The notes beneath the pieces were generated by a model, which saw only the letters and a program-made list of their open reading frames with translations, ran no database searches and was not told the DNA's origin. From the NCBI GenBank assembly GCA_014803525.1, contig JAAVBP010000005.1:1-64000 (forward strand): a DNA stretch of 64,000 nucleotides, written 5' to 3'. Origin of the DNA: a bacterium (GTDB taxonomy: Bacteria > Pseudomonadota > Alphaproteobacteria > Rs-D84). A program made the position numbers and the translations under genes. Positions 21,806 to 61,379 of the stretch are shown piece after piece. The number at the start of each line of letters is the position of its first letter. Position 1 is the stretch's first letter.

Positions 21806-21824
21806 TCAATACCCCCGTTATACT

Positions 21825-21986
21825 AAAAAGCCATCTGATGATCAGATGGCTGGAGCTTGAACACTATAATCACCGGAAAATAGCGTGTGTTATTCAATAT
21901 ATTCCACACACTCCAACCAACGGATTGGAGTTTTTCGTCCGTACAGTAATCCTGTCCCAGACGCCGATGAGTTATGGGTGTTCAAG
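21825..21986 (-). ncRNA. structured leader RNA copy D (divergent member of the family)
   Basis: CTTGAACAC/GTGTTCAAG closing stem, CTCCAA..TTGGAG hairpin, GTGTGGAATATATTGAATAACACAC apical hairpin, AGCCATCTGAT..ATCAGATGGCT terminator with U-run. Confidence 0.65.
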
Positions 21987-22070
21987 CCCAGCATATTTCA
22001 AATCTATGCGTTTTATATTTTATATCATTTGCACTAAAAAAACAACCCGCAATATGCGGGTCAATGTTTA

Positions 22071-33726: not shown

Positions 33727-33742
33727 TGTATTCCTCCGTTAT

Positions 33743-33934
33743 AAAAAATTCCGCATTGATGAGATGCGGTTGGAGGTTGAGAACTACTGTCAGGAGTAGT
33801 GTTGCTTATTCAATATATTCGCAACCCTCCAACCACCGTTGGAGTAATGATTCCTGACAAAATTGGTTCTCACACCTCGCATCGGTCATCACCCGATGCA
33901 GGGGTATTATAACGGATTAAAATACCATTTGCAA
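33743..33934 (-). ncRNA. structured leader RNA copy C with its own promoter
   Basis: TTGCAA-17-TATAAT promoter (33929-33934/33906-33911), hairpin 33879-33899, conserved core, terminator 33751-33769. Confidence 0.75.
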
Positions 33935-41314: not shown

Positions 41315-42493
41315 ATGAAACTGGTGTTGGTATCTTGCTGTGCACCGTGCAGTGCGGGCGCGATAAAGCAACTGGCGGATGGCGCTATCCCGGACGTGGA
41401 TGACTTTGTCGTGCTGTTCTTTAATCCGAATATTTATCCCGCGGCCGAATACGAAAAACGCATGGCGGAACAGATAAGATATTGCGAGCAACTGGGCGTG
41501 CGTCACATAGAACTGGAATACGACCACGATGCATGGCGCGATGCGGTGCGCGGACTGGAAAATGAACCCGAACGCGGTGCCCGGTGCAGCTTGTGTTTTG
41601 AATATCGATTCGCCCGCGCGGCGGCTTGGGCACGCGAAAATGGTTATGACGCGGTAACATCAGTGCTTGGCGTGTCACGGCACAAGGACCAGGCCCAGGT
41701 TGATCGTGCCGGAGTTCGGGCCGTTGCATCGGCCACCCCCCGTCATGTCACAGACATGCCACCCCCCGCCAAGGGCGGTGGGAATTACCATGTGCCGCGT
41801 TATACGCAATTCGCGCTACAACAATCCAAAACATTAAAACGTAATATGACTGATGCAGAAAGATTGTTGTGGCATTATCTGCGTGGGCGTCGTGATTTCT
41901 CGTTTCGTAAACAGGCACCAATCGGAAATTATATTGTAGATTTCGTATGCTTATCGAAAAAGCTTATTATTGAGCTGGACGGCGCACAGCATGGAGATGC
42001 CACCGGTCGCGTACATGACACGGCGCGGGATAAGTTTTTGCACGACGCCGGATACAGAGTTCTGCGCTTCTGGAATGACGAAGTTTTTAAAAATATGGAT
42101 ATGGTGTTGGATACGATATATCGGTATTTAGCCACCCCCAGTCAGGCTGTGCCTGACAGCCCCCGCCCGGGCGGGGGCCATTGCGCCGAAGACCGCAATT
42201 TAAATTCGTATTCCAGAGCCCAAATTCCCCCCGCAATCCACCCACAAAAACATTCGTTTTTGCGGGGCCCGGAAACGGCGGTGGGAATTGGTGCGTTCCA
42301 GGCTCGGGCTGAATTGCCCCCGTCCGGGCGGGGGCTGTCGCCAAGGGCGACTGGGGGTGGCCCTGCGACTGAGCCCGATATTAAATACATCCCTATAAAA
42401 TGGGACGAGGGCCTGCGTCAACAAATCGGACGCGCGTCGGACTTTTACCGCCAGAATTATTGCGGTTGCGAATTTAGTATTCGAAAAGTATAA
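41315..42493 (+). CDS. queH: epoxyqueuosine reductase QueH interrupted in frame by a DUF559-encoding element
   Basis: N-part 'MKLVLVSCCAPCSAGAIKQL...VSRHKDQAQVDRAG' and C-part 'YIPIKWDEGLRQQIGRASDFYRQNYCGCEFS' are QueH; the middle 210 codons are foreign. Confidence 0.85.
   Translation: MKLVLVSCCAPCSAGAIKQLADGAIPDVDDFVVLFFNPNIYPAAEYEKRMAEQIRYCEQLGVRHIELEYDHDAWRDAVRGLENEPERGARCSLCFEYRFARAAAWARENGYDAVTSVLGVSRHKDQAQVDRAGVRAVASATPRHVTDMPPPAKGGGNYHVPRYTQFALQQSKTLKRNMTDAERLLWHYLRGRRDFSFRKQAPIGNYIVDFVCLSKKLIIELDGAQHGDATGRVHDTARDKFLHDAGYRVLRFWNDEVFKNMDMVLDTIYRYLATPSQAVPDSPRPGGGHCAEDRNLNSYSRAQIPPAIHPQKHSFLRGPETAVGIGAFQARAELPPSGRGLSPRATGGGPATEPDIKYIPIKWDEGLRQQIGRASDFYRQNYCGCEFSIRKV
41732..42361 (+). 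mobile_element. 630-bp in-frame element with GCCACCCCC/GGGGGTGGC terminal inverted repeats carrying a DUF559 nuclease-like domain
   Basis: TIRs at 41732-41740 and 42353-42361; 'NMTDAERLLWHYLRGRRDFSFRKQAPIGNYIVDFVCLSKKLIIELDGAQH...LRFWNDEVF' is DUF559; 3' half matches the 70-237 repeat. Confidence 0.7.
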
Positions 42494-46789: not shown

Positions 46790-46970
46790 ATAATGCCCAC
46801 CGCCGTTCCCGGGCCCCGCAAAAACGAATGTTTTTGTGGGTGGACTGCGGGGGGATGATGGCGAATGCCATCGGGGGGGGCAAGTGTTGCGAAATACAAG
46901 CTGGCCACCCCCAGTCGTGTTTCACACGCCAGCCCCCGCCCGGGCGAGGGCAATTCGTCCGTGCCAGGAA
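46790..46970. repeat. partial, permuted copies of the same GC-rich repeat
   Basis: 46790-46880 and 46898-46970 match reverse complement of the two halves of the 70-237 element, in swapped order. Confidence 0.6.
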
Positions 46971-47166: not shown

Positions 47167-47352
47167 TTGCTTTTCCAAAAACAATCCGATATAATGTACA
47201 TTGCATCGGGTGATGACCGATGCGAGGTGTAGGAACCTTGGTAATCAAAAAACTCCAACCGTGGTTGGAGGGTTGCGAATATATTGAATAAGCAACACTA
47301 TTGATTACATAGTTCCTAACCTCCAACCGCATCTCATCAATGCGGTATTTTT
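47167..47352 (+). ncRNA. structured leader RNA copy A with its own promoter and terminator
   Basis: TTGCTT(47167)-17-TATAAT(47190); hairpin 47203-47223; P1 TAGGAAC/GTTCCTA; P2 GTAATCA/TGATTAC; P3 CTCCAACC/GGTTGGAG; loop GAATATATTGAATAA; terminator 47327-47345. Confidence 0.78.
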
Positions 47353-47384
47353 AATTTGGTTTAACAGAACAAAGAAAGAATGCT

Positions 47385-47738
47385 ATGAGGTTGGGGTTGT
47401 TTATATTTTGTTTCGTATTTGTTGTGGGTGCGGCACATGCAAAACATAAACGCATGGAATATGAATATGTATCGGAACATTGCGATGGTCGTACAGAGGT
47501 TACGTTGCGGGATCGCACGCGTGTTGATTGTTTAACGGATGAATACGCAATTGAATTTGACTTTGCCCCCAAATGGGCCGAAGCTGTTGGTCAATCACTG
47601 CACTATGCACGCATGACACAACGCCTGCCTGCGATATATATAATATTAGAATCCAGGAAAGAGACGCGTTTTGTAGACCGCCTGTCGCCACTGTGTGATA
47701 TATATGGAATCAAATTGTTTTTGATAAAAAATTATTAA
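47385..47738 (+). CDS. secreted hypothetical protein downstream of RNA copy A
   Basis: 117 aa; signal peptide MRLGLFIFCFVFVVGAAHA; downstream terminator. Confidence 0.5.
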   Translation: MRLGLFIFCFVFVVGAAHAKHKRMEYEYVSEHCDGRTEVTLRDRTRVDCLTDEYAIEFDFAPKWAEAVGQSLHYARMTQRLPAIYIILESRKETRFVDRLSPLCDIYGIKLFLIKNY

Positions 47739-61169: not shown

Positions 61170-61352
61170 TTGCAAATCTGAAAACAATCCGATATAATAT
61201 TCAATGCATCGGGTGATGACCGATGCGAGGTGTCATAACCTCATGCAATAATCTCCAACTACGGTTGGAGGGCCGCGAATATATTGAATAAGCGCACTAC
61301 CATTGCAGTAGTTATGAACCTCCAACCGCTTATCATCAAAGCGGGCTTTTTA
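61170..61352 (+). ncRNA. structured leader RNA copy B with its own promoter and terminator
   Basis: TTGCAA(61170)-17-TATAAT(61193); hairpin 61206-61226; P1 TCATAAC/GTTATGA; P2 TGCAAT/ATTGCA; core; terminator 61326-61344. Confidence 0.78.
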
Positions 61353-61379
61353 TTTGCAAAAAGATTAAGGAGGCAAAAA

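Follow-up and report, generated by a model that had tools for sequence, protein, structure and literature searches.

The C4 antisense RNA of P1/P7/P22-type ant control lies upstream of an antirepressor gene, the kind of gene that wakes dormant phages, and is complementary to the ribosome-binding site (RBS) region of that gene. The family sRNA-Xcc1 (Rfam RF02221) was detected in Xanthomonas as an RNA of approximately 88 nt on Northern blots (PMC2996969), and integron cassettes carry it upstream of symE (PMC12444791). A search of the open-licence literature gave no statement of sRNA-Xcc1 as a cis-acting leader; earlier work could exist.

The window analysed here covers the opening 64 kb of contig C5 in a genome (G000) of 1.08 Mb. 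The core pattern of the element we describe was found in Alphaproteobacteria MAGs, mostly from animal gut, Candidatus Enterousia among them. Enterousia belongs to GTDB order Rs-D84, the members of which are described as genome-reduced and probably obligate symbionts or parasites (PMC12306168). From the kinship of the element-bearing MAGs we infer that the genome of the window is Enterousia itself.

Judged from its sequence, the element (47167-47352 with its promoter, forward strand) is a leader of approximately 150 nt with its own promoter and an intrinsic terminator, about 24 nt upstream of a start codon. The promoter is of sigma70 type, with TTGCTT (47167-47172), a 17-nt spacer and TATAAT (47190-47195), and one of similar pattern lies upstream of 30 of the 39 leader copies in this genome. 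Downstream come a 5′ hairpin, H1 (GCATCGG-GTGATGA-CCGATGC, 47203-47223), and a local hairpin, Ha (GAGG:CCT(T), 47224-47238), the loop of which contains the 5′ strand of helix P1 (TAGGAA, 47230-47235); the P1 3′ strand, TTCCTA, is at 47313-47318. The segment GTAATCAA (47241-47248) is the 5′ strand of PK2, assigned to the P5 loop on copy-specific complementarity. Segment A (CTCCAACC, 47253-47260; CTCCAAC(C)) is the local partner of the switching strand B (GGTTGGAGG, 47263-47271) in hairpin P3, the last C of A being left unpaired because the loop would be too small. P4 (GTTGC/GCAAC, 47272-47296) carries a strongly conserved 15-nt loop (GAATATATTGAATAA) and P5 (CTAT/ATAG, 47298-47312) a variable loop that is the PK2 3′ strand (TTGATTAC, 47301-47308). 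Segment C (CCTCCAACC, 47320-47328) is the long-range partner of B, assigned together with A through covariation, and its last CC opens the terminator (47327-47352), in which CCGCAT (47327-47332) and ATGCGG (47340-47345) are followed by TATTTTT. The downstream gene (47385-47738, forward strand) encodes a 117-aa protein with an N-terminal signal-like stretch and no match in Pfam.

Nearly every helix is backed by two-sided changes across 92 copies. Ha is paired in 91.6% of cells with two-sided variation at all four pairs, P1 in 98.7% with covariation at all six, P4 in 99.1%, P5 in 98.6% and the base of the terminator in 99.2%. Pairing of the P5 loop with the segment after Ha (PK2) scores 17.45 for a copy's own partner against 10.16 for swapped partners (0 of 5000 permutations). 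As Ha/P1 and P5/PK2 are pseudoknots, the full set cannot appear in an ordinary MFE fold. In the window copy the H1 loop, TGATGA, can pair with TCATCA of the terminator loop, and these loops match as TGAC/GTCA or TGAT/ATCA in 38 readable copies with none mismatched; a loop-loop contact between them is probable. The P4 loop, GAAUA..GAAUAA, is conserved across the range from Enterousia to members of sRNA-Xcc1. In some copies (L031 1416-1610, L101 929-1098, G040) an extra apical stem splits it, leaving an A-rich internal loop, GAAUA / UAAUAA or AAAAUAA / GAAUAU. A leader peptide was considered, B being GGAGG-like and the P4 loop often reading ATG/TTG AAT AAG, and was rejected because copies differ at the start codon (ATA in L018, CTG in L003).

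Besides the copy at 47224-47355 (forward), the window holds a second (33741-33878, reverse) and a third (61227-61354, forward), each before an 82-aa HTH-like protein, a divergent copy (21821-21990, reverse) before a 399-aa secreted-type protein and a partial copy (1-66, reverse), the 5′ part of an element truncated where the contig ends. BLAST and a covariance model, R1, place approximately 39 copies in the 1.08-Mb genome, a very high density for a regulatory RNA. These have in common a promoter, mostly the 5′ hairpin, a variable long-range helix, P3, P4, P5 and the terminator. A reading frame starts close downstream of 171 of 177 related copies (median 24 nt, with genes called by a simple SD/ORF rule). 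Among the gene products, small HTH-like proteins form the largest cluster (56), alongside proteins of secreted or outer-membrane type and small orphans. The proximity of a frame and the set of genes identify a leader and not an isolated RNA, and a second promoter would not fit into a median distance of 24 nt.

Contig ends fall inside leader copies, or lie no more than a few hundred bases away from them, at 1-66 of the window and at C2:110, C4:387, C4:201548 and C14:10012 of G000; the repeats therefore seem to break the assembly and the true copy number may be higher. Three tandem leaders precede one outer-membrane-type gene (L020 1502-2165, G000 C4:170335-170998) and three precede one HTH-like gene (L028 946-1600, G000 C22), and tandem pairs occur in relatives (L092, L291). 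Riboswitches can occur in tandem. The leader is also found on three IMG/VR contigs classed as viral (L264, L265, L266); since the L265 copy precedes an ABC-transporter gene and has a degenerate terminator, such contigs may be host or prophage sequence. The window copy had no match in phage records. A long G/C-rich palindromic repeat family lies between and inside genes of the window (42131-42340 and 46792-46956), in one example as 64 nt at 95% in inverted copies. The epoxyqueuosine reductase gene (QueH, 41315-42493, forward) is interrupted in frame by a DUF559 cassette (Pfam) flanked by G/C-rich palindromic repeats, which leaves QueH as two stretches of one open frame.

The original prediction held that B can pair either with its local partner A or with C. 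The coordinates proved exact and the pairing exceeds chance, both against shuffles and on sliding. Over 92 copies, 97.7% of the B:C pairs are standard and 50 changes are two-sided, where shuffling yields 6.4; slid out of register, B:C gives 36-66% pairing. The main A:B helix is paired in 95.7% of cells, with six pairs that change on both sides. Among 90 substitutions in B that break consensus pairing, 49 are compensated in A and C both, 19 solely in A and 20 solely in C, and 2 have no compensation in either; the copies are related, such that these cases cannot be treated as independent, and kinship is not corrected for by permutation tests. Most of the covariation comes from divergent copies and relatives, the commonest B sequence being nearly fixed in the genome of the window. 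The last base of B pairs with C only and varies along with it (GC, TA, AT, TG). Evolution thus bears out the three-way competition, in which A and C contend for B. The divergent copy at 21821-21990, designated D in the prediction, has the pair GGTTGGAGT/GCTCCAGCC. With regard to function, exclusive pairing of the antiterminator type, with C overlapping the base of the terminator, is supported, and the proposed pseudoknot is borne out by at least two, plus the probable loop-loop contact. The suggestion of an anti-SD or trans-acting role for CCUCC finds no support. C becomes CUUCC, ACUCC, ACCCC, AUCCC, CAUCC etc. together with B, and is therefore kept as the partner of B, not as an anti-SD.

The last CC of C was also predicted to form the first two bases of the terminator stem; this is exact in the window sequence, and across families the CC is part of that stem. 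A terminator-like hairpin is present in 159 of 177 copies and a U-tract hairpin in 154 of the 163 scored. The 5′ arm overlaps C by at least 2 nt in approximately 150 of these 163, and C extends 2-5 nt into the stem in nearly all terminator-bearing copies. The window terminator is worth -6.5 kcal/mol, or -0.8 without the CC:GG pairs shared with C, and the two states differ little in helix energy (A:B at -9.7 plus -6.5; B:C at -15.5 plus -0.8). As in an attenuator, an intrinsic terminator lies between promoter and start codon and there are mutually exclusive helices, one of which overlaps it.

Among 4227 Rfam families no class matched except sRNA-Xcc1; RsaOG, Trp_leader and Thr_leader, at E values of 3-8, were set aside as chance, and C4 antisense RNA (RF01695) gave no match of the window copy at E 10. 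The window copy does not match RF02221 either, at the gathering score or at E 10, and the whole genome of the window gives 0 matches. R1 matches 35 of 35 genomes of the window's genus (Rs-D84/Enterousia-type) and 15 of 18 other sampled genomes of the order. Further families, from a class-wide search, are the basis of a second covariance model, R2, which has matches in 40 of 385 Alphaproteobacteria as well as a few others. Four outlying members from the R2 search pass the RF02221 Rfam cut-off (53 bits) and many more match below it. RF02221 also matches 3 of 3 other sampled genomes of the window's genus, below the cut-off with E values of 1e-6 to 7e-5, and in one genome (G117) its match places coincide with those of R1. 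By this chain of models, R1, R2 and RF02221, the window leader is placed as a distant relative of sRNA-Xcc1. The common core comprises the B:C closing stem, P4 with its GAAUA loop, P5, P1 and the pseudoknot; the RF02221 model spans the 3′ half only, and the 5′ strands of P1 and PK2 lie outside it.

A:B and the terminator hairpin were part of R1 and R2, which biases these models towards copies that have them; to offset this, an alphaproteobacterial sample was drawn by RF02221 alone, a model containing neither A nor the terminator. The small-genome members of the sample show A:B (0 of 5000 permutations) and a terminator in 10 of 20, with no signal of RBS complementarity (1855 of 5000); the large-genome members give 1622 of 5000 for A:B, a terminator in 1 of 10 and RBS complementarity at 4 of 5000. 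In a phylum sample drawn with RF02221 (n = 30, mostly non-Alphaproteobacteria) B:C, P1 and PK2 are present (each 0 of 5000), A is absent (2227 of 5000) and terminators are rare (2 of 30). The P5 loop in this sample shows complementarity to its own gene's RBS region (18.3 versus 14.5 swapped, 0 of 20000). The downstream genes include Bro-N, KilA-N, P22_AR_N, Rha and SymE, and in two named phages ant is directly downstream of the RNA; Haemophilus phage Aaphi23 and Escherichia phage Rac-SA53 carry such antirepressor leaders. Rs-D84 and other small-genome alphas carry A and the terminator and not the RBS complementarity. In the window's group no complementarity of the P5 loop to the RBS region was seen (783 of 5000; own genome 3545 of 5000), and a role for the loop as RBS antisense there was discarded on this permutation test. 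On these comparisons the outputs differ, with A and the terminator in small-genome alphas and both mostly missing in gamma/beta members and large-genome alphas, where the RBS-complementary loop often faces a phage antirepressor gene.

How might such a leader work? We consider it probable that this is a riboswitch-like cis attenuator, in which the folded core with B:C is the ON state and A:B with the terminator is OFF. Transcription would start at the leader's own promoter and A:B could form first, because A and B emerge before C. Were A:B kept, C would remain free, its CC would complete the terminator and transcription would stop. Were the core to fold (P1, P4, P5, PK2 and B:C), C would be taken by B, the terminator would lose base pairs next to the U-tract and the gene would be read. 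We infer that B:C prevents termination, that ON and OFF are assigned in this direction and that the balance is set by some signal (a ligand, a protein or another) that acts on the core; sensing would most likely take place at the P4 loop. In gamma/beta relatives, pairing of the P5 loop with the 5′ segment of the leader (PK2) would leave the RBS free, and pairing with the ribosome site of the gene would block it. Taking the folded core as ON accounts most simply for both outputs. Comparison established the individual parts, that they are conserved and covary, that C overlaps the terminator, that the leader stands before genes and that its core is akin to sRNA-Xcc1. In favour of attenuation, A:B and the terminator go together and RBS complementarity replaces both elsewhere. 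Against it, C and the terminator share only 2-5 nt, so that a shortened B:C could form alongside the terminator.

The latter point bears on the sign of the switch. A signal-stabilized core, with a shortened 7-bp B:C stacked on a complete terminator, might favour termination and leave A:B as the antiterminating helix. Such an arrangement is sterically possible, and the complementarity of the H1 and terminator loops might stabilize the terminator in the folded state. We judge it unlikely nevertheless, as B:C overlaps the terminator and A:B does not, and a folded core would free the RBS in the gamma/beta set. Also unlikely is a free trans-acting sRNA of approximately 150 nt, of the kind described for sRNA-Xcc1, with a variable loop that targets other mRNAs and an incidental place before genes. 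The leader has its own promoter and terminator, sRNA-Xcc1 was seen as a discrete RNA on Northern blots, and the P5 loop of gamma/beta members could act on an RBS in trans as well as in cis; however, the copies lie a median of 24 nt upstream of a start codon, the loop in the window's group is not complementary to its RBS region and a free RNA does not need the competition between A, B and C. That the leader is a static structure or mobile repeat, with A:B and B:C as alternatives on paper only and no switching, is very unlikely, for although near-identical copies occur within the genome, several at contig ends, the three-way compensation, the loss of A where the terminator is absent and the constant position before genes oppose it. 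A mobile repeat and nothing more was rejected, since copies differ by compensatory changes and sit before genes.

The attenuator may belong to something wider, which we put forward tentatively as a possibility we rate somewhat below even. This would be a riboswitch-like orphan class whose outputs can be exchanged, phages and large genomes using RBS masking and reduced genomes a terminator. It would sense a signal and control phage antirepressor genes, sRNA-Xcc1 would be its 3′ half, and gut Alphaproteobacteria with reduced genomes would have adopted it to switch, globally, tens of genes for small HTH and surface proteins. If true, a family curated as a trans-acting sRNA would be recast as the 3′ half of a cis-acting leader, and its structure would gain Ha, P1, PK2 and, in small-genome alphas, the A/B/C switch. 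A control element would be named in front of prophage antirepressor genes, and there would be a handle on the control of surface and DNA-binding proteins in uncultured gut symbionts with reduced genomes.

Three known systems come closest to the leader. It shares B:C, the P4 GAAUA..GAAUAA loop and P5 with sRNA-Xcc1 of Xanthomonas, Xylella, integron cassettes and phages; however, gamma/beta members of that family lack A and the terminator and have an RBS-complementary loop, and the family is described as trans-acting, not as a cis leader. The likeness to C4 is confined to gamma/beta relatives, in which the RNA is just upstream of an antirepressor gene and complementary to the RBS region, whereas the window's group lacks that complementarity and the architecture differs. 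With attenuating riboswitches and the T-box the leader shares a conserved core, exclusive helices, an intrinsic terminator upstream of the SD, occurrence at many genes of one genome, copies in tandem and changing output modules, but its downstream genes encode mostly small HTH, secreted or orphan proteins and do not belong to one metabolic pathway.
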